A stretch of 64,000 nucleotides of DNA, taken from positions 1-64,000 of the forward strand of contig JALQPE010001955.1 of the NCBI GenBank assembly GCA_030407315.1, given 5' to 3'. Below, piece after piece: positions 5,917 to 62,798 of the stretch (its first letter is position 1; every line of letters begins with the position of its first letter). Position numbers and translations under genes: made by a program. Origin of the DNA: Asparagopsis taxiformis (taxonomy: Eukaryota; Rhodophyta; Florideophyceae; Bonnemaisoniales; Bonnemaisoniaceae). Under the pieces are notes generated by a model. That model was not told the origin of the DNA, made no database searches, and saw only the letters and a program-made list of their open reading frames with translations.

Positions 5917-5917
5917 T

Positions 5918-38880: not shown

Positions 38881-38934
38881 CATATGAGAGGGACTGATGT
38901 TTCTCACTCGGGAAGAAGGAGACGATTTCGGACC

Positions 38935-39690
38935 TCGCGAAAAAGGCTGCAAAGTGGTCTGAAACGGTTGGGGTGGTTCTAGGGAGCACTAAAACTTGTT
39001 TTAATTGCACTCAAGCTTTCTCGCTTGCGTGGAAGGGTTGGTATAATTCATCGATTTTTGGTCATCAGATTCTCACAACTGGAGATGTGATGGTCAAAAT
39101 GGAACTTTGTCCGAATGATGTGCAAGTGGTCTGTAAGGGTTGGAGTGGGTCTAGGGAGTACGGAAAAGTGTTCTATGAGTTCGTAAAGCTGCTGGCTTGC
39201 GCATTAGGGCTGACAGAATGCATCGAGTTTTGGTCACCAGATTCCCACAACTGAAGATGTGATGGCCAAAATTGAACTTTGTCGGAACGAAGTGCAAGTG
39301 GTCTGTAAGGGTTGGAGTGGGTCTGGGGAGTACTGTAATGGGTTTTATTTGCCCTGAAAGCTGGTGGCTTGCGAGGTACAGCTTCCGGAGTTCACTAATT
39401 TTTGGTCACCAGATTCTCACAACTGGAGATGTGATGGCCAAAATTGAACTTTGTCGGAACGAAGTGTAAGTGATCCGTAAGGGCTGGAGTGGCTCTAGGG
39501 AGTACGGAAAAGTGTTTTATGTGTCCGTAAAGCTGTTGAATTGCGTGGTAGGGATTCCAGAATGCATCGACTTTTGGTCACCAGACTCCCACAACTGGAG
39601 ATGTGATAGCCAAAATTGAACTTTGCAAGAACGAAGTGCAAGTGTTCTGGATGCCTTCAAGTGGCCTGGAAGCGTACTCTGGACAAGTTT
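38935..39690. repeat. 172-bp tandem repeat, about four copies
   Basis: TGGTCA(T/C)CAGATTCTCACAA recurs at 39058, 39231, 39403 and 39575. Each unit also has GTAAGGGTTGGAGTGGGTCT and a CGTAAAGCTG(C/T)TGGCTTGCG segment. A further one to two units lie at 42110-42290. Frames of 65-93 codons here are repeat translations. Confidence 0.8.
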
Positions 39691-40522
39691 TCGGACCTTG
39701 AAGAGGCTCAACTGCACAATGCTGATATTGAAATGAAACATTCATATAGTCCATTTTTAACTAGAACTGCTGGAATGGATTGCGTAGCCTATAGAGGAGC
39801 AATGTAGTTATATAATAGAGCTAGAAGCATGCCTCAACAACCTATCTCTCATGCCTCTAGTTCTCCTTCATCATTCCAGTCTTCCTTCCTGTGACGCACC
39901 GCGCCTCTGGTGTCACTTCACACGCCCCTCCTGTGCATTAAATACCTGTCTACCACTTCCGTATTCTACTCATACCACCACCTTCATTTTACCCCATGCC
40001 TACCATCCTATCCTTTACCTTCTGTCCTTCAGTCCTAGGCTAACCTACTTCATAACCATCGATGTAAGGTGAATATCTAGATTCCTACCTACTTGAGAGT
40101 ATAGTTTATTATAACGGAAAACGGACGGTTTTGTATAGTCAATGTGCTACACAGCACCAGGAGTAGATTTTGCGCACCGATAATCTATGCTTGATATTGG
40201 AGAGACCGGCTTCTTGTAGCCTCGGAAAATGTGCAGGTAGTACCTTTCCAGAGGTCCTGGAGGTGTTCACACCAACTCTAGTCCATTTTAACGAGTTTGA
40301 ATTTCGACCGCCAGAATCTCTGTCGTGAGAAAATGGTGGTCGAAATTTACCGTGCTGCTCTCCCAATACTGAACTTTTTAGGTAGTTCAGCCCGGGTGAA
40401 CAAGACACAGATTGCTCTTCAAAGCCGCCCGAAGCCGTCGAAACCATCCTTCCACAATGTTCCCGACTTCAAAATTCCTATCTCACCCTTCCCAAAGTGA
40501 GAGAGGGACCAAGGTACCAGAC

Positions 40523-40902
40523 GCTTACAGCTGAGGCAGTTTACCAGGGATGCTTACAGCAAAGTCATCGTTACGATGACTTTGCTGTAAGAAAAGAAAA
40601 CATTACAGTGGGCGAAGGATTTTACCGGGTGAAAAAATCACCAAGAATTTTTTTACCGGGTAAAAAATCGTGGCTACTGTAATGAAACGTTTTCTTACAG
40701 CAAAGTCATCGTAACGATGACTTTGCTGTAAGAAAAGGAAACATTACAGTAGGCGAAGAATTTTTACCGGGTAAAAAATCACCAAGAATTTTTTTACCGG
40801 GTAAAAAAACGTGCCTGCTGTAATGTTTTCTTTTCTTACAGCAAAGTCATCGTAACGATGACTTTGCTGTCAGCACCCGCGGTAAACTGCCTCAGCTGTA
40901 AG
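40523..40902. repeat. Palindrome array 5 (three palindromes)
   Basis: Cores near 40552, 40694 and 40836. Outer inverted ends CTTACAGCTGAGGCAGTTTA and its complement ending ...AGCTGTAAG make the whole unit a foldback. Confidence 0.85.
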
Positions 40903-41591
40903 CGGTCTGGCTTCACCCTCTCTCTCATGTCTCTTGTCTTCCTTCATCCCAGCCTATCCCAACCTCCCTTCTATGTCGACTCCGGTGTCACTCCAGCCGA
41001 CCCTTCAGTGAGTGCAATCCTTCTCTACCACCGCCATAATCTACTCATACTATCCCCTTCATGTTGCTGCATACCTACCCTCCCATCCTTCCTGATTTTC
41101 CTACAATCCTAGGCTAGCCTACTTACCAACTATGTTGGTATTGAAGGCAGCTAGATTCCTAGTAACTCAAATCTATAGTCTGCTAAAAAGGGCGATTTGG
41201 TGTGGTCACTGTGCCACACGGCACCAGGAATAGAATCTGGCCACGGATACTCTATGCTTGATCTCAGAGAGAACAGCTGCGCCAATGCTCCGAAAATGTG
41301 CTGTCAGTACCTTTCCAGACGTCCTGGAGGTGCTCATGCCAGCTCTAGTTCATTTTAGGGAGGTTGAGTTTCGACAATCAGAATTTCACTCTTGAGGAAA
41401 TTGTGTTTGAAATTTTGTGCACTCCTCCCGCCGTACCAGGCAGGGCACCCAGCCCAGACTGGGTTAGCACGACGCAGAGTGCTCCCCAACACCGCTAACA
41501 GCCGTCCAAACCATCCCTCTGCCATGTTTTACGGCTTCACAATTCCTTGCTCACCCTTCCCAAGGTGAGGGAGGGACCAAGCTCCCAGCCG

Positions 41592-41801
41592 CTTACAGCT
41601 GAGGCAGTTTACCAGGGATGCTTACAGCAAAGTCATCGTTACGATGACTTTGCTGTAAGAAAACGTTTTCATTACAGTGGCCAGGAATTTTTTACCCGGT
41701 AAAAAAATCATGGCTACTGTAATGAATTGTTTTCTTACAGCAAAGTCATCGTAACGATGACTTTGCTGTAAACATCCCTGGTAAACTGCTCCGTCTGTAA
41801 G
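41592..41801. repeat. Palindrome array 6 (two palindromes)
   Basis: Cores near 41622 and 41726 with one TTTACCCGGTAAA between them. Outer ends are CTTACAGCTGAGGCAG and CTGTAAG. It is the shortest complete unit and shows the basic design: outer repeat, palindrome, inner palindrome, palindrome, outer repeat. Confidence 0.85.
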
Positions 41802-42046
41802 CCGTTGGTCTCAACCCTCGATCTCATGTCTGTTGTCCTCCTTCATCATCTCCACATCCCTTCCTGCTAAGCATCACTTCTCTAGTGTCACTCTACCAGT
41901 CCTTTTCGTGCATGAAATACTTTTCTACCACTGCCATAGTCTACACATACTATTGCCTCTATACTTCTGCATGCCTACGCTTCCATCTTTCTCTCCCGTG
42001 CTAGGCTTAGAGAATATCCTACTTCCTGAAGATCATTGTACAGTGA

Positions 42047-42105
42047 GGCAGTAAAAATCACTGTCTCACCGTACTGTCTGAGGCCCTCTTTTCAACACCG
42101 TAGTG
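42047..42105 (-). mobile_element. Isolated CACTACGGTGTTG-type element end
   Basis: Sixty bases ending TTTTCAACACCGTAGTG at 42105 match the outer end of the 23523 and 48579 arms with a few differences, then identity stops. To the right, TATAAGGGCTGGAGTGG continues the 172-bp repeat. It is a truncated terminus, perhaps left by an abortive excision or internal deletion. Confidence 0.75.
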
Positions 42106-42941
42106 TATAAGGGCTGGAGTGGCTCTGGGGATTACAGAAAGGTGTTTTATCTGTCCGTAAAGCTTCTGGCTTGCGCATTAGGGCTGGCAGAATGCATCGA
42201 TTTTTGGTCATCAGATTCTCACAACTGCAGATATGATGAATTTCGGCCATGGCCAAAATTCAGCTTTGTCGGAACGACGTAGATTTGGACTGGATGCCTC
42301 CAAGTGCATGCACTTGAAAGTGCACTTAGTCCAAAAAATTGTCCAGAGTACGCTCCCAGGCGATGGCCTGGAAGTGTACTCTGGACAAGTTTTTGGACCT
42401 GGAAGAGGTTGAATTGCACAATGCTTGTGTTGAAATGAAACATTTATATGGCCCATTCTTTACTTGGACAGCTGAAATCCTATCTACTCGAGAGTAAAGT
42501 ATATAAAAACTGGAAACAGACGGTTTTGTATTGTCAATGTGCCACAAGGCACCAAGAGTAGATTTTGCCCTCCGATAATCTATGGTTGATTTCAGAGAGG
42601 ATAACCGCGTGCAGTCACAGGACATGTGTTACCAGATCCTTCCCAGAGGTCCTGGAGGTGTTCGCACCAACTCCAGCCCACTTTAACGAGTTTGAATTTC
42701 GAAAGTCAGAATCTCTGTCGTGAGAAAATTGAACCATTTCCGACCACGTGGTAGAAATTTCGTACACTCCTCCAACCATACTAGACACAACACCCAGCTC
42801 AAACCGGGTGTAAACAACACAATGTGTTACCTAATGCCGCCTACAGCCGTCCATACCATTCCTATACCCTGTTTCCTGTCCTGACTTCATAATTCCTTCC
42901 TCACCCTTCCCTAGGTCGGAAAAGGACGGAAGTCCCTGCCG

Positions 42942-43405
42942 CTTACAGCGGAAGCAATTTACCAGGGATGCTTACAGCAAAGTCATCGTTACGATGACTT
43001 TGCTGTAAGAAAATAAATCATTACAGCAGCCATGATTTTTTACCCGGTAAAAAAATTCTTGGCCACTGTAATTGAAACGCTTTCTTACAGCAAAGTCATC
43101 GTAACGATGACTTTGCTGTAAGAAAATAAATCATTACAGCAGCCACGATTTTTCACCCGGTAAAAATTCTTGCTGATTTTTTACCCGGTAAAATTTCTTT
43201 GGCCACTGCAATGGAAACGTTTCCTTACAGCAAAGTCATCGTTACGATGACTTTGCTGTAAGAAAATAAATCATTACAGCTGCCATGATTTTTTTACCCG
43301 GTGAAAAAATTCTTGGCCACTGTAATGGAAACGCTTTCTTACAGCAAAGTCATCGTAACGATGACTTTGCTGTAAGAATCCCCGGTAAACGGCTTCCGCT
43401 GTAAG
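42942..43405. repeat. Palindrome array 7 (four palindromes)
   Basis: Cores near 42971, 43084, 43225 and 43340, with TTTACCCGGTAAA partners and outer inverted ends CTTACAGCGGAAGC and GCTTCCGCTGTAAG. Confidence 0.85.
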
Positions 43406-43569
43406 GGGCTGAGAGTTCCGTCCCCCTCCCACCTAGGGAAGGGTGAGCAAGGAATTGGGAAGTCAGGAACATGGCTCAGCAGAACGTTTGTACGGCTGTG
43501 AGTGGCTTCCAGGAGCATTCTGTGTCATGTGTTATCTCAGCAACGTCTCTTATAGTCGAACCTCACGGG

Positions 43570-46160
43570 TTGTCAAGGTCTAAAACTAGTCCCCCCTACG
43601 GTCTAGCTAGTGAAATCATGTAAAGTTGTAGACTAATACAAAAATGTAGCAATCAATAGGCTTAGTAGCACTAAACTATGACATGAAGGTCAGATGTATA
43701 GATGAAAATAGAAAGGTGGGCTAAGCGAATAATGTTGAGATGAGAAAGACAGAACTTCATAGCAGGGAACAATAGCATAGGTTTTAATACTTCTCGTATG
43801 CTATCTATTGCTCCTGTCATACTTTTAATATTCGACGGTGTGGATGTGGTCCGTGAGGACGTCCTTCTCAGTCTTCAAGTAGATGTGGCCGCGCGTGGGC
43901 AGACCATAGACTAAATTCTGCTCCCACAGGAAGATCTCCTCACCTGAAGCCGACCCCGTAATGGTAAAGGTCACCGCGATCAACTAAGACGGAATAGGGT
44001 GGCACATAAAAGTGGTTAACGGGAACCTTCCACATGTCGGCGTCCGTATGGACCAGGCATACATGACTATAAGGTGCAGCTACTATAAAGAACCCATCGG
44101 ATCCGCTCGACATCATGAAATAGGATGGGGATTGGGTAGGTCCGACTCCTCAAAATTGGGATACTCAGAAGTCCGTGTGCCCATCCTGGTCCGCAGCCCC
44201 ATCTGTTTTAAGAAGCAGCCGTAATCCTGTCTTCGGGAAAAAGACAGGATCCTCACCCTCCATTCCCAACTTCAAGAAATCCGCACAAACACCAAGAGCA
44301 AGCTCTGCCACCAACTTGTTCCTGTACATATCCAAATTCCCCTCCTCCAGCTTGTCGCACAATTCACACCGCGGCAGGGGGAGTCGCCCACGACCACCAT
44401 CTATGCGGTCCTTCGCAGCACCCACGTTGTGGATGAAATGCCACGGCGAAGGATCAAAACCGGGCTTGGCGAAATCTGGGGGCTCGTCCTGTGGTTTCCT
44501 GTCTTCATAATCAGAATCAGACTGCTGGGAGGGTTTCTGTGGCTTTTCAACCTCCTCAACCAGCTGGAACTGTCGAGAAAAGTGACTGAAGAGGTCATGC
44601 GTCGCGCTACCAGCCGTGGACGACTGCAAGAGGCCTTCCACAACAACCACCCCCATGTTGTCCAGCAACGCCGCTTCACCGCAAAGTACTATTCCACCAC
44701 CGAGTCCTCAGCACCTGGCGATGCAGCTGCCAGGAATGCTGCCGCCTTTATTTCCGCCCGCACCGTCTCTACCGTCGTAATTTCCATGTAGTACTTCATC
44801 GGGCTACCAGACGCAATTGCGCTGGGGAGAACGGCGGCCACATTCTCATCGACGATACTGTCGGGAATAGGATTTTCATGGGCGTCGTCGAACTGGAGAA
44901 TCGGCTCCCGAGAACGTCCTCTGGAAGCCGACTTGGATTTCTTTGACGACGACTTTGATGAAGTCTCACTGAGCTTCCTCTTTTAAAAGTACCAAATTTG
45001 GTAGAGGGCTCGGGCGTCGCAGAAGCGGTTTCCCAGTTGCGCTTCCCAAGGATGGAGCTTTTACCCGCATCCTTGGGTGCGCTCTCCAGCTCGACGACCT
45101 GAACAGGGCTCGCACCACCCGCCGTCGCTGTTCCACCACGACCGGAACGACTCTCTTTCAGGCAGGTACTCCTTTTGGGCATCACTTTCCCAGAAGTTTC
45201 CACTCCGGACGATGCAGACACGACAGGGGTAGTGGCAGAAACAGAGGCAGCCTCGGAATAGCTGGAAGAATCTAATTGAGGTGGTACTACCTAAATTGGA
45301 TTCTTCAAAGGCAAAGGAATGGAGGATGAAGGGATGGTCAGGGAAATGGAAGGGGAAGGGTTGGCGGAATCATGACCACATGTGACTGGGAGCGCAGCAT
45401 GTGGGATGTGTGGGTCCACCACGTAAAATTGTTTCCGCATTTACATGTCGCGGTAGCCAGTTACGCGCAGGAGCATTTTCCTGGCGTCCTTTCAAAACAT
45501 AGACTTCCGATTGGGAAAGATGTTCTCAAACTTGGAGCCATTGGGAGGGCCTTCCTTGGGATGTAAGTCCGCTCAGAACCCCTTCTTGGGCACCATCAGC
45601 GCAAAAACTTCGACTACGCGTGAGTGAATGTCGAAGCTCTTGCTCGGGTCACCCACGCTGGGAATGGAGCCATCCAGCATCCTCAACACATCCGAAACGT
45701 TCCAATACTCGGCCACCTCCTTCACGTACCCGAAGATTTCCAACAAACCAGCAATCCATTCCTGCCCAATGGTACCAACCGAGTTCGGTTTCAGCCCGGC
45801 CCACCAACGGCTACAAGTGTAGTACGCCGTCATCTCGAGGTTGACACAATTTTGGACGTCCGGAGCACCCCTAAACGATCCGTTGAACAAAAATTTCACC
45901 GTACACCCAGCCAGATTCTCCGTCGAAGAGAACTGCACGAACTCTGGCCTGTTCGGAATAGTTTTCTGCAGCCAAATCCGTTTTCAAGAATTGCTCCATC
46001 GTTGCAGACTTCTTCAACCACTAGCCAACGACCTCTGATATTCACTTTGCGAGGTTCAACTTGCACTTCAGACGAACTATACTGGGCAATATTGATGCAT
46101 GTCTCGCTTGCTGAAGGAGATTTACTCTTTTCCGCTACTTCTCCGCTATAGTGCAGAATT
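43570..46160 (-). pseudogene. Mosaic ParB/dioxygenase pseudogene (gene A 5' end joined to gene B)
   Basis: Reading leftward from 46155, about 110 bp match the start of gene A (31470-31565, GTGCAAGTTGA.CCTCGCAAAG). About 70 bp then match gene A 32455-32515 (AACGGATTTGGC.GCAGAAAA). From about 45960 the sequence follows gene B, including its Ser-rich linker (reduced) and the 3' flank to 43570. Most of the ParB-like domain is therefore deleted. The gene B part is in pieces: 45938-45573, 45221-44796 and 44668-44165. The last keeps GLRLLLKTDG and GHTDF, but a TGA follows HTDF directly and the rest of the catalytic domain is decayed. It lies just inside the right arm, pointing inward, the mirror position of the 26167 transposase in the left arm. 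Confidence 0.75.
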
Positions 46161-46184
46161 ATATTTCTCCGCCACTAAATTCAA

Positions 46185-48579
46185 CCATTAAGAAACCTTT
46201 CCTGGCTTTCATTCGATCCAATGAACTGTTTCACCACAATGATTTGTCCTATGCTCATTACTTTATGCACAATGATTGCTATTTCATCCGGGCTCGACCT
46301 ACTCAATATCGTTTTGCTATCTTGTATCGCATTCCCTAAACACCATCCTGGCCAAGACGTATCCACTTCCGTTTGTTACGCAGTGATGCTCTAAGCACTA
46401 ATACTGAATCTGATTTTCTCATGCACGTAGTTCCTACTCGTATACTCTACCATATTCTCGGCCCTATTCACAAGGTGAAAACACGATGTCTCGTTGAATC
46501 GTACTCGGTGTGATATCTTAAATTAGGATACATTTTTATATTGCAATGCAGACTCACTGCTCGCTTGAAACATGAAAATTATAAAAATTCTTCGACACTG
46601 CTGTTTCCTAACCGCCACCATCCACGTGGCCCGCTTTGACTGCCTGCCAAGTGTACTCGGAGCATACAATGACGTTATCGATATATACCATCCACATCAT
46701 CACTGGAAGCGCGGACTCCTCGTCCAGGAAAGTGCGCCATTTTTCTTACTCTTCACCTCCGCCTGTCCTGTAGGCCCCATATGCTAGTGTTTTTCCTATA
46801 TTTCTGTAGTGATGACGTCATTCTAGACAATAAAAGGCGGTAGAAGATACGATAATGTGCGCCTCCTCTGCCAGATCATGTGCTTCCAAGCGTAATTCGC
46901 AGCCTAGGTATCGTTTTTCTGGGCCTCCCATCGCACCGCTCCGTTTCAAACTCATCCCTCTATTGTTCTCCTACACGTCATTTCCGCCCGTAGAGTACTA
47001 CTTAAACGAAAGATTCTGGAAATCCCTGTTTCCATCTTCATATCCGTCGGAAACAAAGCAACAACCCTGGCCGTGGAAGCCGTATAGATCATCTAAACTG
47101 CTTCCAAAGCGTAAGTTTTAGATCATCAATACGGCTTCCAAGGCCAAAGTTGTTGCTTTGTCTCCGACGGATATGAACCATGATGGTACGTTTCCACAAC
47201 TCACGCCACTAACCCAGTTTTCTATTCGTTTTCTCTTTCTCAGGTTTCCAGTCGGTGAGTGTTCCACTTCTACTTTCATTTATCTTTCTCTCTTACCACT
47301 TCTCCACTAATTTTCTTTTCTGCCTGTGAGTACATATCTCAATTTGGGATGCAATGGTATTTGTTAAGGTACGTTAGTCTCCTAATCACCATCAATTTCC
47401 CTCTCCAATTCAACGTCACTAACTTGTTTCCTTTCTATACATCATTTTTTCTTCTTCTCTTCATTTCCTAGCTTATTCATGCAGCTCAATCAGTTGATAG
47501 ATTTCTAGACTTTTCTAGTAGTTTTAGTTTTACTCGTCGGAATAGTGTTAGTTGTAGTAGCATTTTTAACATAGGGATTGTTTATTCTCAATGTAGCCTG
47601 CGCAAATAAACAAATCCAGAGTGAAGCTTCCCATATCGCACCCTCTTAGATTGCTACCTATCCTACCGCGTATACCTCTCGCTAGCTCATAGTCACTACG
47701 AAATAAAAATTCCTAGCCGTACTATTCTGTCCATTCCCATATGAATACCGTCCATGCCCCATCCTCATAGCGCTAGAACTGCCTTCCTCTACCCCAGAAA
47801 GATGCCCACGACAGCGTGACGCTCCATCTCATCCACCACTCCCAGACACCGAATTTTACTATATCAGGACACTACTTTTACTGTCTCCAGGTGCTGCCCA
47901 GGGCAGCACGAAATACTGTCTCCAGGTGCTGCCCAGGACAGCACAAAGTACTATCTCCAGGTGCTGCCCAGGGCAGCACAAAGTACTGTCTACAGGTGCT
48001 GCCCAGGGCAGCACGAAATACTGTCTACAGGTACTGCCCAGGGCAGCACAAAGTACTGTCTACAGGTACTGCCCAGGGCAGCACAAAGTACTGTCTACAG
48101 GTACTGCCCAGGACAGCAAAATCACTGTCTCCAGGTACTGCCCAGGACAGTGAAAATACTGTCTCCAGGTACTGCCCAGGACAGTGAAAATCACTGTCTC
48201 CAGGTACTGCCCAGGACAGTGCACCGTGTTGGTTCCATCTATTGTCCCAGGCAGCGTATTTCACTATCCGGCCATGTTGCCTTGGCCAATACAAAACACT
48301 ATCCGCCAACACTGCCCAGTACAGTAAATTACATCATATCCAACTATTGAATAAATCATTAATTTTTACTGTCTCCATTCACTGCCTCAGACAGTACTGT
48401 GAGACAGTGTTTTTTACTGTCTGCAGACAGTGTTCCGTACTGTCTGCCAGACAGTGCAAATCACTGTCTCCAAGTGTGGCATTAATTTTCATTTGCCGCA
48501 TAGTGATTTTTACTGTCTCAGACAGTAAAAATCACTGTCTCGCAGTACTGTCTGAGGCCCCCTTTTCAACACCGTAGTG
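46185..48579 (-). mobile_element. Right ~2.4-kb inverted terminal arm
   Basis: Inverted counterpart of 23523-26061, ending CAACACCGTAGTG at 48579. It holds about ten copies of the 35-bp repeat (47886-48220) against about fourteen in the left arm, and the same hairpin at 47039-47175. The inner third (46185-46900) is more diverged than the outer part. There are no genes within; frames such as 46572-46787 are shared non-coding sequence. Confidence 0.8.
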
Positions 48580-48581
48580 TA

Positions 48582-49270
48582 CAGTGGGAGCAGCTACGCA
48601 CGAGTTATTCACACAGATGGCCAGCACATTCCAAGGTACTACAAGTGGCTCAAGTACAAGTCAGAAGAACCCGTGGAAACCACTTCGACCGAAAGACAGC
48701 ACTGGTGTATTCAAGACGGACCGGAAAAGCATCTGCGATGACCTTGAGCAAGAAAGCGCGCGGCAGTACAGGAACAAGCTGATTCTGGAGCTAGGTAAGG
48801 CGATTTGTGCGGAGAACCTGAAGCTCGGGTTTGGAAGAAGAAGCGGTGGTCTTTCCAGAAACGGGTCTTCGTCTGATTTTGACCGCAGAAGGTAGTCAGG
48901 AGCAACTTATGCATACCGATGTTCCCGTCCGTGAGGGAACTGGAACTGGTCCTCTCAACTCGCCATCATATTTCATGATGGCTGCTGGTGCGGATGGGTT
49001 CATCATTCGTATCGCCAAGTTCAGCATGTGTGCCTAAGTCATCCAGCGAAAGAAAAGTACCGCGTGCCAGTGACGAACGTGCGCATCCCACCGTATTCCC
49101 TGCTTGTATGCCGAACGGACGTGTATCACGGAGGAATGGGATTCGCGGAGGGTCGTTCTTCGGTGAGGTACCAGCATCCTATCCGGTCCCATCTATCACT
49201 GCGAACTTCCAGGGAGAAGTTGCTACAGCCTCCCTTCAATGTCAACTACTGGGAGCGTTTAGATATCTGA
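48582..49270 (+). pseudogene. 3' half of ParB/dioxygenase gene A (frameshifted)
   Basis: Continues gene A after the transposon: ATHELFTQMASTFQG, then CDDLEQESARQYRNKL. The frame shifts at GGAAGAAGAAGCGG near 48835, where the copy at 6105 has two more bases. The catalytic domain follows with GLRLILTAEG, MHTDVP (HxD), SPSYFMMAAGADGF, a one-base loss after AKFS near 49024, then IPPYSLLVC, VYHGGMGF and HPIRSHLSL. The metal-binding triad and candidate 2OG-binding arginine are all encoded, but in two or three frames. A 1-bp-precise junction with 33873 supports it being the rest of the same gene. Confidence 0.75.
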
Positions 49271-49491: not shown

Positions 49492-49727
49492 CTTACAGAT
49501 GATGCAGTTTCGCTGGGGTGCTGACAGCAAAGTCATCGTAACGATGACTTTGCTGTAAGAAATCAAATCATTACAGCGGCCACAATTTTTTACCGGGTAA
49601 AAATTCTTGCTGATTTTTTTACCCGGTAAAATTTTCTCACCACTGTAATCAAACCTTTCCTTACAGCAAAGTCATCGTAACGATGACTTTGCTGTAAGCA
49701 TCCCGGGTAAACGGCTTCGGCTGTAAG
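49492..49727. repeat. Palindrome array 8 (two palindromes)
   Basis: Cores near 49522 and 49660. The left half matches array 1 of copy 1 closely, but the second palindrome is followed by a normal outer end (CCCGGGTAAACGGCTTCGGC). Confidence 0.85.
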
Positions 49728-50268
49728 CGGTTGGGAGTTTCGTCCGTCTCCCACCCTGGGAAGGGTGAGAAGGGAAGTGTGGAGCCGGGAACATCGTACA
49801 ACGATGGTTTGGACGACTGTTGACGGCTCTGGGGAGCACTCTGCGTCGTGCAAGCCTGGTTTGCGCTGGCTGCACTACCTGGTATTGAACGGTTCTGTGC
49901 GCAAAGTTTACTCATGAAGGAGTTAGGGTGTTGTGTACCACACCAACCATAGTTACTAACATTTGCAGTGTACTCTAGTGATGTAATTATTATTCTAGTT
50001 TCTAGCTATACAATGATATTAAGTAAGTCAGATGTGCACAGAGCATGGTCTAAGCCTAGCACGGTAGAGAAAGATGGAAGAAAGATTGAAGGGTAGGCAT
50101 GCAGAGGTATGAAGGCAGCAGTATGTGTAGACTATGGCAGTGGTAAGAAAATATTTCATGCACCAAAGGGTGGGTAGAGTGACATTAGAGAGGTGGTGTG
50201 TAGGGGGAAGGTAGGTGGAGATGATGAAGGAGGACAACAGAAACGAGAGCGAGGGTTGAGACCAACGG
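49728..50268. other. Segment between two arrays, absent from copy 1
   Basis: About 540 bp of non-coding DNA related in reverse to the filler at 41800-42000 (for example TTTCATGCACCAAAGG.. against CCTTTTCGTGCATGAAAT). Copy 1 has no counterpart; there the left half of array 8 is joined directly to the right half of array 9. Confidence 0.6.
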
Positions 50269-50591
50269 CTTACAGATGGAGCAGTTTACCAGGGATGCTT
50301 ACAGCAAAGTCATCGTTACGATGACTTTGCTGTAAGGAAAGGTTTCATTACAGTGGCCATGATTTCTTTACCCGGTAAAAAAATTCCTGGCCGCTGTAAT
50401 GAAAACGTTTTCTTACAGCAAAGTCATCGTAACGATGACTTTGCTGTCAGGAAACAAAACATTACAGTGGCCATGATTTCTTTACCCGGTAAAAAAATTC
50501 CTGGCCTCTGTAATGAAACGTTTCCTTACAGCAAAGTCATCGTAACGATGGCTTTGCTGTAAGGATCCTTGGTAAACTGCCTGAGCTGTAA
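50269..50591. repeat. Palindrome array 9 (three palindromes)
   Basis: Cores near 50300, 50412 and 50526. From about 50440 on it matches array 1 of copy 1. Confidence 0.85.
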
Positions 50592-50796
50592 TTGTCGTAC
50601 AACGAAAAGTGATGTGGAAGGTTCGGATTGGTCAACCGCTGAATATCATTACCAGGGTGTATACTAATAGGAATATGTCAGATCTCTAAGTTTCGCCTAT
50701 CTTACTCAGCTTACGCAGCAAAACAGCTTGTCGTTCAGATCTTCTTCTCTCTTTCTCAATCTTTCACTCTTCGTTTGTCAATCACTCACCAAAGCA
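50592..50796 (+). promoter_or_regulatory. Probable promoter and leader of gene B, copy 2
   Basis: Counterpart of 7112-7316, with the same inverted CCAAT box, AT-rich GTATACTAATAG segment and pyrimidine-rich leader before ATG 50797. Confidence 0.4.
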
Positions 50797-53700
50797 ATGG
50801 CTCAACAATCCCCCAACGCTTTCGACCGCCAGGTGCGCTCTGCCAGCCGCCGTGACAACGATTCTCCCACTCCTTCTCCCTCTCCTTCTCCCTCTCCTTC
50901 TCCTTCTCTGGCCCCCCCTGTCCCCATGGACGTTTGCGAAGCTGCTGCAGCGCTGACCCAGCTCAGCCCAGCACCTAAGCCCGTCCCCTCCCCCCCTTCC
51001 GCTTCCGATCCCGCGGTTGTCCCGACAATCGACGCTGGCGTTCCCGCAACTCCGCTTCCGGCTCAATCTGCCGAAGCGGCGCCAGCCGTCGAGGGATCTG
51101 GTGCTCCTCTGCCCAGCTCGCCTGCTCCGGACATGATCATCGCGTCCGGCAGCGACTTGGCAGAGGATGCGGAGAAGGTCGATGATCACAACGCTCGTGA
51201 CATCGTACCGAACAAGCCTCTCCGCAGCACCAGGCTGGCCTACCCTGGCACAGTGCCCATCCCGGTGGATGTGGACTACGACATAAGTCCGGAGAGCTGC
51301 CGAAACATTCCAGTCTTCATTTCCCCCCTGGATGTTTCTCCTCCGGCAGTCGTGTCCAGGGTGGTCAGGCCGCATCGCGTTGATGAGTTGAAGAAAACGT
51401 TTCTCACTCAGGGATTTTCCGTGATTGCTTCACGCGTGTCCGTCTGCGAGGTGATTGATTCCAATGCAAAAGTACGACTGCAATATGTCGATGGATCTCA
51501 CCGAGTGACCGCGTTGAAGGCCATTCTCGAGTCGGCTGGACCTGCTCCTGCGAAGGACAGTCCAGAGTGGGAGGAGTTTGTCAAGTCTGACATCTACCGT
51601 CGCTTTGGAACTATTCCAGTCGACTTTCTCCTCCCACCGACTCGGCTTGGCCGGGATGTCTTCTGCTCCGAAGAAGTACTCCCGCTTTCACGGCTGATGA
51701 ACTTCCACACCCACAATGTCAGCGAGGTAACAGTTGCTGACAATGTGTGCTCTGTGATGGAGTTCATCAATATCCACCGCCTGGGAAAGAAGAAGATCGA
51801 GCCGACCGTTCAATACATAAAGAACGGAAAGCGCTGAGCTGGATTCGTCCGAGACAGCTCATGCGCTACGTCTCGATCGCGCGAGGGTTCAAGACCATTG
51901 AAAGCCCTGCTTTCAAATACTGGTCGAGCATCCCGAACAGGCCGGAGTTCGTTCAATTTTCTTCCACAGAGGATCTGGCTGGGTGTACGGTGAACTTGTT
52001 GTTCAATGGGTCGTTCAGGAGTGCTCCGGATGTACAGAAGTGTTTCATCCTGGAGATGACGGCGCGCTACACTTGTAGCCGTCGGTCGGCCGGGCTGAAA
52101 CCGTACTCGGTTGGTACCATTGGGCAGGAATGGATTGCTGGTTTGTTGGAAATCTTCGGGTACGTGAAGGAGGTGGCCGAGTACTGGAACGTGTCGGATG
52201 TGTTGAGGATGCTGGATGGGTCAATTCCCAGCCGGGGTGACCCGAGCAAGAGCTTCGACATTCGCTCGCGCGTTGTCGAAGTTCTTGCTCAGATGGTCCC
52301 CAAGAAGGGGTGCTGGGCAGACTTCCGTCCCAAGGAAGGCCCCCCCGATGGTTACAGTTACGAAAATATTTTTCCCCGTAAGAAGTCTGTCTTCGGGAAG
52401 GACGCCAGGAAAATGCTCCTGCGCGTCACTGGGTACCGCGACATGCAAATGCGGAAACGCTTTCACGCGATGTACCCAGACATCCCACATGCTGCGCTCC
52501 CAGCCACATGTGGTGATGATGCCCCCATCCCTTCCTCTTCCAATTCCTTGCCCATCCCTTCATCCTCCATTCCTTTGCCCCCACCACCTCAACTGGAATC
52601 TTCCAGCAATTCCGAGGTTGCCCCTGTTCCTGTCTCTACCCCTGCCGTGTCTGCATCCTCCCCTGCGGTGACCCCGGTCAAGCCGACTGCGCGTGGTCCC
52701 CAGGATGGCAGCGAACGCTCTGGTCCAGTTTCCCACGCCGGGACTGGTACCCCCAACCGTCCTGTCCAAGCCGCGCAGGAGCAGGTCTCACCGGCTTCGC
52801 AGCCTGAGCCTGCGACTCCGGCTGCCGAGCAGCACCCTGCTGCTCCGGCCCCCGCTGTCGAAGCTTCCCGTTCTGCATCTGCTAGCAGTTCGGGAAGCTC
52901 CAGCGATGACAGCTTCGTCCCTTCACCATCCGGTGGGGTTGGACAGAAGACGGTTGCGAGGATTTCGACGGAGGGCCCTACTCCCGAGAATGTGGTCGAG
53001 GGCAGCAGTGCGAAGGGCGGTGCAGATCCTGACGAAGATGTCATTGAAGTCAGTGATTCTGCACCGCCCGGAGTGGAAAACTTCTGGGAGGAAAGTGATG
53101 CCCAGAAGGAGTACCCGCCTGCAAGCGAGTCGTTCCGGTCGTGGTGGAACGGCGGGTGGTGCTGTGGAGGTCGTCGAGCTGGAGAGCGCCCCCGAGGATG
53201 CGGGTGAAAACTCCATCCTCGGGAAGCGTAACTTGGAAGCCGCTTCTGCGACGCCCGAGCCTTCTACCAAAAAGAGAAGGCTCGGTGAGACTTCATCAAA
53301 GTCGTCGTCAAAGAAATCCAAGTCGGCTTCCCGAGGTCGCTCTCGGGAGCCGGTTCTCCAGTTCGACGACGCCCAGGAGAATCCCATTCCCGACAGCATC
53401 GTCGATGAGAATGTGGCCGCCGTTCTCCCCAGCGCAATTGCGTCTGGCAGCCGGATGAAGTACTATATGGAAAGTACGACGGTGGAGACGGTTCGGGCGG
53501 AAATGAGGGCGGCAGCATTCCAGGCAGCTGCATCGCCGGGTGCTGAGGATACGGTGGTGGACAGGTACTTTGCGGTGAAGAAGGCATTGTTGGAAAACTT
53601 GGGGGTTATTGTTATGGAAGGCCTGTTGGCATCGTCCACGGCTGGTAATGCGACGCATGAGTTGTTCGGTCACTTCGCTAGGCAGTTTCCCGCTGGTTGA

Positions 53701-54445
53701 GGAGGTTGAAAAACCCTCCCAGCAGTCTGATTCTAACGATGACGACAGGGAGCCACAGGACGAGCCGCCAGCTTTCGCAAAGCCCGGCTTCGATCCTTCG
53801 CCGTGGCAGTTCATCCACAACGTGGGTGATGCGAAGGGCCGCATCGATGGTGGTCGTGGGCGCCTCTCTCTGCCGCGGCGTGAGTTGTGCGACAAGTTGG
53901 AGGAGGGGAATTTGGAGATGTATAAGAACAAGTTGGTGGCAGAGCTTGCTCTTGGTGTTTGTGCGGAGTTCTTGAAGTTGGGAATGGAGGGTGAGGATCC
54001 TGTCTTCTTCCCGAAGACAGGATTGCGGCTGCTTCTTACAGCAGATGGGGCTGCGGACCAGGATGGGCACACGGACTTCAAGGTAGCGACGAATAGTGTT
54101 GGAAGTCCTACCACGTCTCCATCATATTTCATGATGTCGAGCGGAGCCGATGGGTTCTCTATAGTAGTTGCCCCTTATAGTCATGTATGCCTGGCCAGTC
54201 CGGGCGCCGATATGTGGAAGGTTCCCCCTCTCATCTTTTGGGTGCCACCCTATTCCGTATTGGTTGGTCGCGGTGACCTTTACCATTACGGGGTCGGCTT
54301 CAGCCGAGGAGATCTTCCTGCAGGCGAGAAGTTAGTCTATGGCCTGCCCACGCGCGGCCACATCTACTTGAAGACGGAGAAGGACGTCCTCACGGACCAC
54401 ATCCACACCGTCGAATATTACAAGTACGATAGGAGCAATAGATAG
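50797..54445 (+). CDS. ParB-like domain / 2OG-Fe(II) dioxygenase fusion, gene B copy 2 (best copy)
   Basis: About 1215 codons in four frame blocks: 50797-51816, 51817-53085, 53086-53690 and 53691-54445. MAQQSPNAFDRQ is followed by a (SP)n microsatellite region, then a ParB-like domain with VVRPHRVDELKKTFLTQGF and DGSHRVTAL (51490-51504). Next are a helical segment (YVSIARGFKTIESPAFKYWS), a long disordered Pro/Ser/Ala linker, a basic nuclear-signal-like cluster (TKKRRLG...KKSKSASR), and the dioxygenase core. Metal ligands are His54068 and Asp54074 of HTD and His54284 of LYHYGVGF; Arg54353 of LPTRGHIYL may bind 2-oxoglutarate (base positions). Breaks are a missing C at ~51817, an extra A at ~53086 and an extra T at ~53690, each absent from copy 1. 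It would be an oxidative enzyme acting on a base or protein side chain, targeted by its ParB-like part. The substrate is not deducible. Confidence 0.75.
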
Positions 54446-54921: not shown

Positions 54922-55268
54922 CTTACAGCCGAAGCCGTTTACCAGGGTTCCTTACAGCAAAGTCATCGTAACGATGACTTTGCTGTAAGGAACCGTTTCC
55001 TTGCAGTGGCCGAAGAATTTTTTACCGGGTAAAAAATCAGCAAGAAATTTTTACCGGGTAAAAAATTGTGGCCGCTGTAATGTTTTGCTTTCTTACAGCA
55101 AAGTCATCGTTACGATGACTTTGCTGTAAAAACGTTTTCATTACAGCGGCCACAATTTTTTACCCGGTAAGAAATCATGGCTGCTGTAATGATTTGTTTT
55201 CTTACAGCAAAGTCATCGTAACGATGACTTTGCTGTCAGCATCCCCGGTAAACGGCCCGCACTGTAAT
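54922..55268. repeat. Palindrome array 10 (three palindromes)
   Basis: Cores near 54952, 55094 and 55202. It lies between the 3' ends of gene B and the methyltransferase gene. It has one extra TTTACCGGGTAAA unit and slightly different spacing from array 2. Confidence 0.85.
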
Positions 55269-55542: not shown

Positions 55543-58500
55543 TCAGTTAGCTGGCCAATATTTTCTACCATAGTCAGCAAATATCTCCTCATCAGCTTCA
55601 ACGTCTCTGGTCAGAACGACCTTGACAGCATGGGGATTCTTGATATTCGAAGCAAAGTCCGGTTTGTCTATGGCATCGCCTTGTCGAAACTCGGCTGACT
55701 GTGTTCGACTCACCTCGGTCGCTTTCTCCGTTCCGTCAATGACCCGACAATCATTGAGGTAGCTGGTACAATTATAGACCGCTGGAACGAGCCAGACCTT
55801 CCGAACAGGTGCACCCCTCCCTATGTACGTGGTTTCCAATTCCATGTTGTAGTCCTGGAACCTCTCTCCTGTGCACCCAAATCCTTCCGGGCCGTACATC
55901 ACTGATCTCTGCGGTTCCGAGTCTCGAATCTTCGCATAGAAAATCGTCCCGTTGTACCAGCCAATGACCGTCCCCTTCTTCAGTTTCTTCGCCGCGAATA
56001 CGCCAAACCCACCACCTCTTACCTCCGATTGCGAAACATAGACACCGTAGAATGCGGCATCAGCAGCCAGATCGCGTCCGGGTCTATGCTCCAAAACGAG
56101 TGCATGTCCTCGGCCGGCCACTGGTCCATAGGCACCCCGCTCAATCTGTGAAGCATAGAACCGTCCTTCTTCATTGACGCAACGAACACAAGCAGATGGT
56201 TCGGCAATGCTGTCACAGCAGGTAAACCTTCTGGTGCATCTGAGATGTGCTTCTGACGAAGCCTTGGAGCTTTTCCTGTGACCGGTACCGACTCGTCCCC
56301 AAGAATACTCTCCACCTCACGCTGCAAGATCCCCCCATATCGCCCGGCTTTCACCTCACTGACGAAAGCATGCAGTATCCACTCCTGCGATGCATCGTGG
56401 CACCTTTTTTCCTTCTCACACCCAATGAACCGACGATACGTACCATCCCTCAACGTCATACACGCTATGGCTGTGCTGTATGTTCCCGAGAAGAAATCCA
56501 TCACGATATCGTTCTGCTTCGAAAATCGTTCCAGAAGCTCACGAAGAGTGGTCAACGCCTTCTGCTCATGGCGCAGTCGGTTGTTCTGCCCATCGTATTG
56601 AGCTTCACCAGCCGACAACCTCGGAACGTTGTCAATCGCGTTGGTGAACCCAGGGTGCCTCGATATGTCCGGATTGTGCAACCTGTAATCCACCATATCG
56701 TATGCAGCCATACCCTTCCCCCGCTTATACGCATGGATAACGAAATCGTGCATATTATGCAGTGTGCACGTTTTCGTCGATGGATTGGACGTAAAGCTGT
56801 GTGGTCGGCGAGATAGCACGACTGGAACACTGTCCACAATCATCTTGCCAGGCTCGGCATTTCTGATTGCATCCATCCATGCCACGAGTTGGCGCACGCT
56901 GGAATAGATTAGAGCATGACCGCCAGGCCGAAGAACTCGAACTATTTCACACGCAACACTCGCCAACTCTTCCGGCTCCAGAATATCGTACTCCGAGTTT
57001 TCTCTGCCGCCTTCCCGCCTCGTGTTGAATGGAGGATCAGTGAGCACAAGCTGAACACTGTCCTCCAACACGCCATCTTCCAGGAAACTAATTTTGTCCT
57101 CCACCTCTTTGGCTACATCAGTGGCGTCACAATTCACAGTGTGAATGTAACGCCCCATCACAGCTTCCAGCTTGGTGACATATTCCGGCTTGGATTCCTT
57201 TCCGACGTCAACGAGCGGTGCTTCTGTAGGCGATACAGTGTCAACCTCCATAGCGTCATCCTCGGCCGCACCTTCTCTTGTTGCTGTTTCGCTAGCAACC
57301 GCCGCATTATCGTCCTCTCCACCACCGCGCTCCAGCCTAGCCTTCTTCCTCTGTGGCTCCAGACTATCCTCTTCTATATCCTCGCTGCCATTGTTTGGCA
57401 CTGCTGCGGATATTTCCATCTGCGCAGGTGCACCTTCAAGGATGCCAGGCTCGGGCGTATCCTCAAGACTGTGCAACTCATCCATGGTCAGAGGAAGCTT
57501 TCGTTGCTCTCGGGTTCGCAATAACCAAGCCTTCAGCCTCCTCTGACCATCCAGGGCATGAGACGTGTTCAACTTGGCTCGCATGAACGAGTTCAATCCG
57601 AACTTGTCAGGAGTGTCGAAAAGCAAGGCTCGAAGTCTCTGCATCAGCTGACCACGCTCGGCGAACACATTCACCTCAGTGACACATTGGCGTATCGACA
57701 GCAGGAAGGCGCTTGTCAATGATCGCAGCCTTGCATCCACAGCCACTGGAAGGTCGGCACAGAACCCGTTTTTCACTGTCTACAGTTTTCGGGACAATGG
57801 TCAGGTTTTTCCGATGCTCCTCGACCGCGCAGCCATCAGACCGATTCGGGAGTGACCTGAAGCAAAGGCTCGCAGGATCGAATACCATGAACGGCGGCAG
57901 CACATCGATTCAACATCCTCATACCCCAACACTCTTGCCCCGGTATCCCACGCAGCTAACACACGGTCGACAACAAATCCAAGCTGGTTGGCTTGCGCAC
58001 TGGATGTTGCAATTCCAACCATTCCACCACCACCAATGGCCCCGGATGTGGCTCTGGCCCGCCTAGATGGCGCACTGCCATCTCCTTACTGCGAATAGCC
58101 AAGATACACTGGCACATCATAACCATCAGCCTCCTGAACCGCTTCTGGCTAGCCTGCAAAGAATCTTGCATGTCGGATGTAGCGCCGTCTAGAAAGTACC
58201 TGCTCGAAAGCAGTTCGCGGTTCAGTGGAGAGGACAATTCTCCGCGGGGTGTCTTGCCAAACATTTCGACGGCACGAGAACTAGTCACCCCCACCTGTTT
58301 CGGAAACTCACCATCAACGGAGAATCACCCATCTCTGCATTGAGTCCCCATGCATGACAAAACATTTGCCACAGACGCAAATCAATCGCACTCGAATCTT
58401 CTGCTCGGTGATACGGCCGAAGCACAGCCAGGATAGACATGCATGAGCTGTACTGCGGTTTACCACTCAGGCTTGAAGCAATTTGGCCGCTTGGATCGCA

Positions 58501-58968
58501 GGACTTGATCCAGCCCAACACATCGGCCATCCTCACAGACGAAATATGAGCGTACTTGTCCTTTCCTTTTTGGACCCAGTACTCGTCTCTGAGATCAACG
58601 GCGATCATCAGATACTCAACAAACATCATGCGCCTTTGCAGGCCTGCAATGTCGTTGGATGTCGTCGCTCTCACACGGTCCAGCACAACAGCAGTACTGC
58701 TGTTGGTGTCCGCCACGATAGACTCTTCTCGCATAGGAATCGTAACGCCAGGAGGAAAGACGCCCTTCTCCATTCCACGTACAATTGCCATGCAGCGGTG
58801 CGCTCCATCCAATATCTCCAGAACGCCTTCTCGAAACCTGCCAGTCACGGGATGAGCTGTGTCATAACCGCTGTTGCGAATGCTCTCCATGAGCGCTTCC
58901 ACATGACTTGCATCAACATCGCGAATCGATACGAATTTGCTGACTTGATTGGGTCGATGAACACCCAT
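55543..58968 (-). CDS. ParB-like / beta-class DNA methyltransferase / SET triple-domain protein (frameshifted)
   Basis: Reads leftward, about 1140 codons if all frames are joined. ATG 58968 follows an in-frame TGA and opens a ParB-like domain with HRPNQVSKFVSIRDVDASHV and ILDGAHRCMAI (58795-58809). A middle region (58290-57780) is split into several frames. The 57776-56019 frame has an acidic stretch with QRKKARLER, then VQLVLTDPPFNTR (residues 247-250 of that frame), VLRPGGHALIYSS, DIVMDFFSGTYST (427-435) and FIGCEKEK. Motif IV before motif I is the beta-class order, and DPPF favours N6-adenine over N4-cytosine. After a one-base loss at 56072 the SET domain follows: GGGFGVFAAKKLKKGTVIGW, SYLNDCRV, EEIFADYGRKYW. 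No pre-SET cysteine cluster is seen. Breaks near 58290 and 57780 fall in homopolymers. It is predicted to methylate DNA and a protein, perhaps a histone. Confidence 0.75.
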
Positions 58969-59530
58969 CCGTCGTGCTTTTCACCGTGATTGTGGAACGT
59001 TCCTTCCATGGCGAACAAAGGTAGAGTTTTTAAGAAAGGGATAGTTGGTTGCTGCTTGACCAGGGTGGCGCAAAGCAGAAGTTGGTTGTTTAAAACAAAG
59101 TGTCAGCGAGTGGTAGCACTTCGGTGGCTGTTTCCTTTCACCCCTGTCCGAACCTTTACAAGATAACTACATCGACTGTTAGCTCAATAATCAATGTAAT
59201 ACTAAAGTAATACTCAAAATATTTTTCCATGCAATTTATTGGGCCCCGTAACATCTCTAAGCGTATCTTTGTAGTCCAATCGTATGCATCCGACATTCAC
59301 TTCTAGAACGATTATTCACATCAAATTTTATGCTGCAATCAGTTCATGGCAGACATCATCCACACTGACGTGTCAATTTTGTCAATTGTCCATTCTATTT
59401 CTACACCACCTAAACATCTCTTCTGGACCTTTCCAATCCTCCTAGTATATACTACTCTTTAGCAGAAGGTAACGGTTAGGCTTTCACTAATACAACAATT
59501 CTATCCCATAGCTATCCCAACATGCTTCCT
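58969..59530. other. 5' flank of the ParB/methyltransferase/SET gene
   Basis: Non-coding by eye, becoming AT-rich beyond 59160. It should contain that gene's promoter. No CACTACGG-type element end is seen here or further right, so the element boundary on this side is unknown. Confidence 0.35.
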
Positions 59531-60897
59531 CTCGCTCCAACGACGTTATAGAAGTTCAATGGGAACTTCGGCCGTTTGGGAAAACGAAAAATTGTGTGGT
59601 GGTCTGCAATCGTCAAGGAAATTACTCAGGTCAAGACTGAAACAGACCCATTCCTCCATGCATTGCTCGAATACAAGCTGAATATGGTTTCGACTCTACC
59701 CTTTCTCAAGTCAAGATTTCAGATCGTAACGAGCTCGTCGACAAGGATTCCGGAAGGGTTCTCCCGTGGCGAAGTGGTGAGCTTCGCAGTATGGACTCAC
59801 CTGCATCCCCAGCAGAGAGAGACCCGGACTACGGCATTGACCACACTCGCCACCGCCACCGCGGCATCCTTCAAGATTGCACTGCGGATCAAATGAAGAA
59901 GACCATAGCAGAAATGCTGGCAAGATTGGAAAAGCTGGAGTCAGCTGCCAAACATCCTCTTCCCCCTCCATTCGATTCCAACAGCTCCATGACCTCCTCT
60001 GCTCTGACTGTATGTAGCATTCTGTTTCAGAAGCTTGGTGTGTACACGGACAAGCCCCTCTCCCTCCCGGATGACAAAATCCGAGCACTCCAGGGGAATG
60101 CGACAAACATCGCAAGAAGAAATCAGAGTACAGGCTGACTGCTCCCTTGCTCAATTCCGCACTATTGCCATTCAATGCAAGGCGAAAGAGAATCGTGATG
60201 TTCTCTTCCTGCCGTCCTTTGAGGACATCACCTTTCCCTCTGGAAATGAGTCGGATCTTTCCATCATTTTCCCCACCTTTCAGGCACTATGTGACTCCAT
60301 AGGTACCTCGCAACACGGGTTCCAGAAAATATGGTGAAGAGCAGGGCGGAACGCGATGGAGGCAGCTCATCGATTGTCCGAATTTTAGGAAATCTAGTCG
60401 ACGTTGACTGCTCTCATGATGCTCCTTCTTCCGCATTTCTCGTCGGCTCATCTGCTTACGTCCTGTCCAGCCCAGACCAACGTATGACAGTTCTTTGCAG
60501 AGACTCCTACGAGTTTGACCATGTCAACAATACATTTTTACATCCCCTATGTCTTAGCCAACTATCACAGTCTAGCATCGTGGACTCTTTCCACCTACGT
60601 GATAAGGCTACTGTTACTTATGGAGCAACGTTTTCGTTACTGTGGAGACGTATTCAGCGCCGAGCTTGTTACAGCACTTTCCAGCCTCTATCAACCGCAG
60701 AGACGTTTGGTACACTACATCTACGCTTACCTTGCTGTATTTTCAGTGGTACTACTATATGCCAGGAGCTTGAAGACATTGGCTATGAGGCTATCTCTCG
60801 TCTTGGCTTCAATGCGGATTCAGACACTACCCCACCCCCTCTCCTCCACCTGCCACCTGCAGTCCGAGCAAAAATGATAAAGCACACCTATCCGTAG
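59531..60897 (+). pseudogene. Unidentified broken gene
   Basis: Successive frames 59576-59770, 59791-60110, about 60105-60337 and 60331-60897 follow each other with small overlaps, as expected for one gene with three frame breaks. Visible features are KRKIVWWSAIVKEI near the start, a short coiled coil (MKKTIAEMLARLEKLESAAK), LQGNATNI, DVLFLPSFEDITFPSGNESD and SSAFLVGSSAYVLSSPDQRM. I recognise no family. Its 3' end faces the gene at 61305-62527, like the convergent pair at 17043-22443, so it may belong to an element rather than the host. Confidence 0.3.
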
Positions 60898-61304: not shown

Positions 61305-62527
61305 TCAAACCTCCTCATTCATGAACCGACTACTCACCCGCTCCCCGGGAAGAAGCAGTTTCACTGCTTCATTGATTTCCCGGATTTGCGCTCCTTCCAC
61401 CTCTGTTCCACTTTGAAATTTCAAAATCGTTCGGAACCCGTATGCAAGTATGTAGATGAATTGCAAGGAGTATTCTGAACGTCGCAGGAACATGTTCTTA
61501 TCAGAACATTGCGTGTAGGCGACTGCAAAGTTCAGTGCAACCTCTACTAAATTGATCCTCCTAGTCAAAAACCTCTTGTCCGGTTCTCCAATTATTTGAA
61601 CTTCGTACTCGACTTTGAATAGCATTTCTTTTCGCACTGCAATGAAGTCGCGAAGAATCTTCATATTCTTGTCATCCATTGCTGCACGCTCCGCTGCATT
61701 CATTTTCCTCTGCGCCGAGTACAGACTTGGAACTGACTCAATGTCCAGCCCACCGTCGTGCAAATGATGCTCCATTCGGACTGAACCTTGAAACCCACTG
61801 TATAGAACGAATCCAAGATCTCGGATGAACCGGTTTCGCACATGATCTCTGGACTTGTTCATAACCCGGTCACTGCCGTGAGTGCCGATTTCGTCACAGT
61901 GATGCCTACCTCCTTTCTGTGCAACGGCCCATTGTCACCAACCTTTCTTCGCTTCTGCTTTCGAGCGGCCCCATCACTTCCCTCGGACGTCCCATGCATT
62001 CCATCCATGCGAGCAGAGTCCGTTCCGCGAATTGTCTCCTCAATGGTCCCGGTAGTCACATACCCCCCGCGCCCTCCACCGTTCGATACCTTCCGACGTT
62101 CCATTGGAGCTGGAACGGTCTCCTCCCTCTCTGAAAGAATTGTTTTGACACGTATTCTTGATTAAAGAGGTCACAACTTGGCAGCGCAATTCAATGTGGT
62201 TCCGGCCGGCAAGCGTCCTATTGAACACATCCTTTCGCTCATTGCTCTGCCTGGCGAACATCAGCGTATTGATTAGCTGGCATCCGTTGAAATGCCTATC
62301 CCTCTTATCCACCATTGCCTTCGTGTACGTGGAACAACAGCACACAGCACAGCACACACCATTTCGAACGTGAACGATTTCTCCGCATCCTGCGCAATGC
62401 GGAGACGTTCCCTGTCCTTCTCGGAGGCGATCTTCTTCGGATGTCCTTGTCCCTGGCTCAGAAGCCCATCGACGATGCTCTTGACCTCCTGCATATCGGT
62501 GTTTAGCATGGAGAGTCTTGGCGACAT
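61305..62527 (-). pseudogene. Unidentified protein related in pattern to the 20159-22443 accessory protein
   Basis: Three or more frames chain leftward: 62527-62360 (MLNTDMQEVKSIVDGLLSQG, then ASEKDRERLRIAQDAEKSFT), 62357-62110 (FNGCQLINTLMFARQSNERK DVFN), 62104-61859 (charged, KQKRRKVGD) and 61862-61305. The last has a helical region with NMKILRDFIAVRKEMLFKVE and FLTRRINLVEVALNFAVAYT. The blocks M-AR--N-R--F and F(L)TRR occur in the same order in the 20159 protein (VMSARKRNARDRLF; EFTRRYSQYVGVAFQQLVGM). No known domain is recognised. It is likely another element-borne accessory gene, broken by frameshifts. Confidence 0.35.
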
Positions 62528-62798
62528 TTCCGAGAGTCTCGCGTAATTGAATGGTGCTGATGGGAAAAACGATTCCCGAAATTAAAAATGACAGTGTTCG
62601 GTTTTGATTGGCGCACGGTACGCCGGTGTATCGCGAATACTCGCGCTGGGGGATGATCGTGTGTGATGAGGTGGTTGTTGATGGTAAAGATGTGGATGAT
62701 CTTGCCTCGGCTCCGGAGCAAGTCGCCTATTTATCTAGTTCTAGCTTCTACAACTACAATCCTAGGTGGCTAGCGAATTCAAAACATAGGTAGCATAG

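Follow-up and report, generated by a model that had tools for sequence, protein, structure and literature searches.

A ParB-like module, a predicted DNA methyltransferase and a SET domain joined in one transposon gene of the red alga Asparagopsis taxiformis

The locus studied here raises the question of whether a ParB-like module, a DNA amino-methyltransferase and a SET domain can be parts of one transposon-borne protein and, if so, what such a protein might do for the element that carries it. The locus lies in a 64,000-nucleotide stretch of the Asparagopsis taxiformis genome (hereafter the window; contig JALQPE010001955.1, positions 1 to 64,000), which is part of contig C1830 in the 141-Mb assembly G000. 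All 13 matches to the phycobilisome family in this assembly exceed the family's cut-off, and 11 of them are on contig C469, as would fit a plastid of the red-algal type. An original prediction, made from the letters of the window, had read the three parts as a single gene interrupted by small frame breaks. We find that they are fused in one gene, here called gene B, and in one protein, on a multicopy DNA transposon; the activity that we propose for this protein is more tentative, being deduced from sequence.

Gene B, its intact copies and its carrier

All the motifs named in the original prediction were found on the minus strand, in the order it gave and in consecutive open reading frames (ORFs): LDGAHR in the ORF from 58968 to 58285, LTDPPF and then DFFSGT in that from 57776 to 56019, and GGGFGVFAA and DYGRKYW in that from 56121 to 55543. 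The gene probably starts at 59009, 41 bases upstream of the 58968 given earlier, as it does in the intact copies and in P0001, a nearly identical protein from another record. When the blocks were searched against Pfam, the middle ORF matched N6_N4_Mtase (6.9e-17; 62.6 bits against a cut-off of 26.7) and the third matched SET (1.4e-7; 32.3 bits for the window ORF and 27.6 for the whole intact protein, with a cut-off of 22.4). The prediction was to be given up if no ParB or SET profile match appeared; SET matched in Pfam and the N-terminus matched a ParB family in PHROGs.

The alga's own genome was searched with the gene B middle frame, and 75 places were scored from 3,403 first-look candidates. 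At 56 of these 75 places the match lies in an open frame whose length is exactly 1186 codons, and 16 of the 20 loci that were read whole hold gene B in one frame, running from MEGTF to YWPAN with 1,155 residues in 15 loci and with 51 residues fewer (1,104) in the remaining one (L015). Independently of the main copy, a truncated second copy in the window also holds the methyltransferase end and SET in one frame (12894-12022). As the window copy is out of frame at several places, it might be taken for a pseudogene in decay, or for neighbouring genes joined by an artefact, but this is almost certainly wrong, since the open frame at the 56 places refutes it and since the window shows an excess of indels over substitutions where most other copies show the reverse. 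Over 3,468 bases, gene B of the window differs from the intact copy L005 by 3 substitutions and 6 indels, and from the gap between genes A and B rightwards the window differs from the copy in contig C632 by 12 substitutions and 35 indels. On the other hand, substitutions exceed indels relative to C632 in nine of ten other copies (in two of these by 2 to 1 only), which speaks against decay as the cause of the breaks; the copy in C1596, with 3 substitutions and 30 indels, shows the same indel excess as the window. Because this excess is confined to the window stretch and C1596, sequencing error is likelier than decay, and the frame breaks look like uncorrected sequencing errors. Introns were considered as well, as stretches of about 17 bases bounded by GT..AG occur at two breaks, and were ruled out because the intact copies run through them. 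Along the window, indels outnumber substitutions relative to C632 between about 54.9 and 62.6 kb, suggesting an uncorrected assembly stretch.

The carrier of gene B is a real multicopy DNA transposon, present in dozens of copies, because it was found to have terminal repeats, target duplications of 2 bp and an empty site that matches. Copies in C436 (19,410 bp) and C1596 (16,325 bp) are bounded by perfect terminal repeats of 13-14 bp and flanked by the target duplications GA/GA and CA/CA, respectively; gene B is intact in the former and frame-broken in the latter. Duplications of 2 bp (GA, CA, TA) flank all three elements of which both ends were read, and the right end lies at an identical ...CAACACCGTAGTG in all eight copies whose right end was read. 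An 18-base form of this right end occurs 354 times genome-wide, and its reversed control not once. For the main copy in the window, no right end was found within the window. A related stretch nested in the window's element has its empty site in C632, C1569 and C1772. The CACTACGGTGTTG terminal repeats and the 2-bp duplications agree with the 5'-CA..TG-3' ends and the duplications of 2-5 bp that PMC12730594 gives for the CACTA-like (CMCT) clade. With the intact copies in one frame and the element so delimited, the earlier reading of one transposon-borne gene holds.

Among 30 gene B copies we counted 58 distinct substitutions, of which 34 are synonymous, 21 change an amino acid and 3 create stops. 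The observed synonymous share (34/58) compares with an expected 25.4% (p 8e-8), computed with transitions weighted twice transversions and with changes taken as independent. The copies were the 20 best-ranked places (window included) and 10 picks from long contigs, a sample that leans to intact copies; L005 served as the reference, and only alignments longer than 300 bases were used. The excess of synonymous substitutions shows that the gene B protein has been under selection, which kept it in working order as copies of the element accumulated. In C436, C1808, C1569, C92 and C1772, gene B is about three to seven times less divergent from C632 than gene A is, which may reflect either selection or recombination between the element halves.

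The three parts and their relatives

For the N-terminal part, PHROGs matched the 132 N-terminal residues of gene B to the 'ParB-like partition protein' family phrog_1033 (5.4e-4) and the homologue P0002 to the same family (6.2e-5), its best match being phrog_4272 (3.8e-7), a family of unknown function. With tblastn, two Leptospira proteins were found, a phage 'ParB-like protein' (4e-5) and, from a plasmid, a 'ParB N-terminal domain-containing protein' (5e-4). In the structure model, residues 16-96 follow the strand (E) and helix (H) order E-H-E-E(LDGAHR)-H-E, with a predicted local distance difference test score (pLDDT) of 69-88 for this block. We infer that the module may bind element DNA. 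A search of the alga's genome with PF02195 found no match on the element; the sole Pfam ParB_N match in the genome (G000:C1526:7582-7839) is off the element and may be bacterial contamination.

A homologue search, in which the 7,992 candidates with most shared words were scored, found 12 proteins: P0001 and 11 more distant relatives (P0002-P0012), which we aligned with the alga's own protein (alignment A1, 12 sequences). The methyltransferase-SET order and its motifs are common to all 12 sequences, and motif IV precedes motif I in each of them (DPPF from 659 and DFFSGT from 839, A1 numbering). P0002 is 48% identical, and P0004 has DGAHR in a degenerate form. These 11 relatives, one of them from Chondrus, show that the methyltransferase-SET architecture is old. 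A viral origin of gene B was considered and rejected, as the seven matching viral loci cover only query residues 601-884, that is, the methyltransferase part.

The methyltransferase part is a predicted N6-adenine DNA methyltransferase: its nearest solved structures are mostly N6-adenine enzymes, with a rotifer N4-cytosine enzyme and PvuII matching too, and its predicted fold matches CcrM despite an altered motif I. The usual SET motifs are GxG, NH and ELxxDY; in A1, GxG is present in 11 of the 12 sequences, and EE and Y in all 12. Among the profile matches of the SET part are EZH2 and the H3-Lys27 methyltransferase of PBCV-1, but also KMT2C/D and KMT5A, so that these matches do not point to a single class. 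The class of EZH2 and the H3-Lys27 methyltransferases is repressive, and gene B might accordingly be read as a silencer, a copy-number brake that marks copies of the element for repression; with KMT2C/D and KMT5A matched as well, and with dozens of intact copies giving no sign of restraint, we regard this as clearly improbable.

Other genes and repeats of the element

The features of the window are collected in Table 1. Genes A and A' lie between the left end of the element and gene B. Gene A is intact in C632, as a 1,215-amino-acid (aa) frame; of ten long copies, nine have an intact gene B, two an intact gene A and two an intact gene A', some copies being cut by the fetched stretch. When hand-cut slices were compared one to one with hhalign, the N-terminal module of A/A' proved to be related to gene B's (P 92.7, E 4.3e-7). 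Their shared end domain, in which HTD, H and R are invariant in the three sequences at hand, reads as 2-oxoglutarate dioxygenase-like by motif alone. Searching with the A' end returned P0015 (the alga's own, near identical) and P0016 (from another source), the latter with the same layout as A/A'; no gene A homologue over most of its length was found, the candidates probably being swamped by low-complexity words.

Table 1. Positions of gene B, its parts and the other features in the window
Feature	Position	Strand	Remarks
Gene B: ParB-like + beta-class DNA methyltransferase + SET	55543..59009	-	small indels in window copy
ParB-like module of gene B (LDGAHR)	58620..58988	-	PHROGs, tblastn, strand/helix order of predicted model
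DNA methyltransferase domain of gene B, predicted	56385..57056	-	DPPF (motif IV) precedes DFFSGT (motif I), as in the beta class
SET domain of gene B	55567..56010	-	Pfam PF00856 1.4e-7
Left terminal inverted repeat CACTACGGTGTTG	23523..23535	+	
Probable transposase, 1288-aa open frame	26104..29970	+	CxxC at 679; weak Plavaka similarity
Gene A', 5' part	31302..33873	+	related N-terminal module (IDGSHR); cut by nested element
Gene A', 3' part, frame-broken	48580..49270	+	dioxygenase-like HxD..H..R end (motif only)
Gene A, frame-broken in window	50671..54445	+	related N-terminal module (VDGSHR) + dioxygenase-like end
ORF C region	59576..60897	+	453 aa from ATG in C632
ORF D region	61305..62726	-	508 aa from ATG in C632
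Palindrome array, transposase-like gene / A' gap	30091..30624	.	
Palindrome arrays, A' / A gap	49521..50563	.	
Palindrome array, A / B gap	54948..55239	.	
Palindrome array	38425-43378		
Nested stretch, same family	33874..48579	.	terminal repeats both ends, TA/TA duplication
Second, truncated element copy	5916..14142	.	A' end, A, B without N-terminal part

The related modules bear on whether gene B was captured from the host and is carried as cargo, with its action in the host instead of on the element. Although methyltransferase-SET relatives exist in Chondrus and in other sources, as capture would suggest, we hold this decidedly unlikely, since the N-terminal module of gene B is related to that of genes A and A' of the same element and since gene B is under selection across element copies.

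The gaps between the genes hold perfect palindromes (33-75 bp in C632) with the core AAAGTCATCGTWACGATGACTTT. C632 has 14 of them, all outside genes, with none found in its B-C and C-D part; the window has 30, each of which lies either in a copy of the element or in the nested stretch. We infer that these intergenic arrays are the best candidate binding sites for the ParB-like module. It is conceivable, if rather doubtful, that all three proteins, one a writer of DNA and lysine methylation and two partners of the dioxygenase type, have ParB-type modules by which they read the arrays as parS-like sites and spread along the element, which would make it a self-addressed epigenetic system; that loading and spreading of the ParB-parS type has thereby moved from prokaryotic replicons to eukaryotic chromatin seems just as doubtful.

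The 1288-aa frame is probably the transposase, though on weak grounds: one stretch resembles a Plavaka ORF (E 0.048), and a Pfam search of the frame gave no match. A fragment of ORF D (61308-61934), which alone was searched in Pfam, gave no match, and no tRNA genes or Rfam families were found in the window. The nested stretch is a diverged relative inserted in gene A' of the larger element, with about 86-87% identity in gene A, and an extra left-type end at 42093-42105 suggests further nesting within it. Tandem repeats of 35 bp adjoin left-type ends (23881-24365 and 47879-48221), and a 43-bp tandem repeat array (14265-14787) lies near where the second gene B copy loses its N-terminal part. Outside these copies, an open 1036-aa Plavaka transposase (16971-20081; Pfam 1.7e-24) apparently belongs to a separate element, and a 670-aa open frame on the minus strand (20159-22171) has a coiled-coil stretch and no clear family.

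Proposed function and comparison with known systems

We propose, with a probability of roughly 45%, that the gene B protein sits on element DNA and methylates adenines there and lysines nearby, probably against silencing. The ParB-like module would seat the protein on the element, with the palindrome arrays as candidate sites; the methyltransferase part would make N6-methyladenine (6mA) on element DNA, and the SET part would methylate nearby histones (or some other lysine), so that on balance the element escapes silencing. The two dioxygenase-like proteins may share this DNA address through their related module and supply an opposing or maturing activity. The anti-silencing step is proposed by likeness to other transposon-borne epigenetic proteins, as anti-silencing has been proposed for Vandal proteins of plants and for TET transposons of fungi (PMC12730594).

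Several observations weigh against this proposal. The original call of a ParB-like part, upheld by the PHROGs and Leptospira matches, drew no ParB match to gene B in Pfam or NCBIfam; genes A and A' (Pfam, NCBIfam, PHROGs) and P0016 (NCBIfam, PHROGs) gave no ParB family match in the libraries searched, and two structure searches had no ParB chain among the 50 matches listed in each, lists dominated by the methyltransferase part. DGAHR is present in only 3 of the 12 aligned sequences (the own protein, P0002 and P0008), although P0003, P0005, P0010 and P0011 may be incomplete, and P0009 of Chondrus crispus begins after this region. The 23-bp palindrome core occurs 8,710 times genome-wide, about 25 per exact right end as against 14 in the C632 stretch. 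The dioxygenase-like end of A/A' has no Pfam or PDB match, and the structure model of A' (pLDDT 32) was not used. The canonical methyltransferase motif I is FxGxG; in all 12 sequences it is FxGT followed by Y, F or C, with the second glycine replaced, and SET has ND in place of NH, likewise in 12 of 12, while the SET of P0008 and P0012 falls under the Pfam cut-off. Being family-wide, the departures in motif I and ND argue for a distinct clade, as judged from the alignment.

The position of the ParB-like part ahead of the methyltransferase, within one protein, also allows a different function: the former could be a nicking nuclease, with the methyltransferase protecting or licensing sites and SET as an auxiliary, in the manner of restriction-modification or of a strand-nicking helper in transposition. 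A bacterial protein of this make-up, the ParB-adenine methylase Bce_0392, nicks nonspecifically according to the available text of PMC5512222. This leaves the SET domain unexplained, which is aligned in 12 of 12 sequences where DGAHR is found in 3, and we consider it unlikely. If the anti-silencing proposal is true, a single protein of a high-copy eukaryotic transposon would join prokaryotic-type DNA addressing to a DNA methyltransferase and SET, and the system would bear on a directed role of DNA adenine methylation in algae, on the means by which transposons reshape the state of their own chromatin, and on a possible eukaryotic reuse of ParB-type targeting.

The original prediction knew of no described protein with this trio. 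A literature search, with reviews of eukaryotic adenine methyltransferases outside its reach, found no account of ParB, methyltransferase and SET together, and to that extent the claim stands; the pair of ParB and adenine methylase, however, is already known in one bacterial protein, Bce_0392 (PMC5512222), so the novelty lies in the addition of SET, in the carrier being a eukaryotic transposon and in the three proteins occurring as a set. Bce_0392 resembles gene B in its fusion of a ParB domain to an adenine methylase, and differs in being bacterial, in lying off any eukaryotic transposon and in having no SET mentioned in the available text of that article. CcrM, M1.HpyAVI and M.RsrI share with gene B the fold, motif IV before motif I, and DPPF/DPPY, whereas gene B lacks the second glycine of motif I and has large N- and C-terminal additions. 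Phytophthora HarbingerS and MuDR are, like the element of gene B, DNA transposons with a SET gene, but belong to other superfamilies, with neither a methyltransferase nor a ParB-like part mentioned in the available text of PMC12730594. The fungal TET/JBP transposons Plavaka, EnSpm, ESTA and KDZ (Kojima 2025, PMC12730594) are alike in their CA..TG ends, 2-5 bp duplications and epigenetic cargo; as described in the same text, that cargo is a methylcytosine dioxygenase and not a methyltransferase-SET fusion. Among the relatives of gene B, P0009 of Chondrus crispus, named 'adenine specific DNA methyltransferase', shares the methyltransferase-SET order without the ParB-like part, and P0002 and P0008 share both this order and DGAHR.
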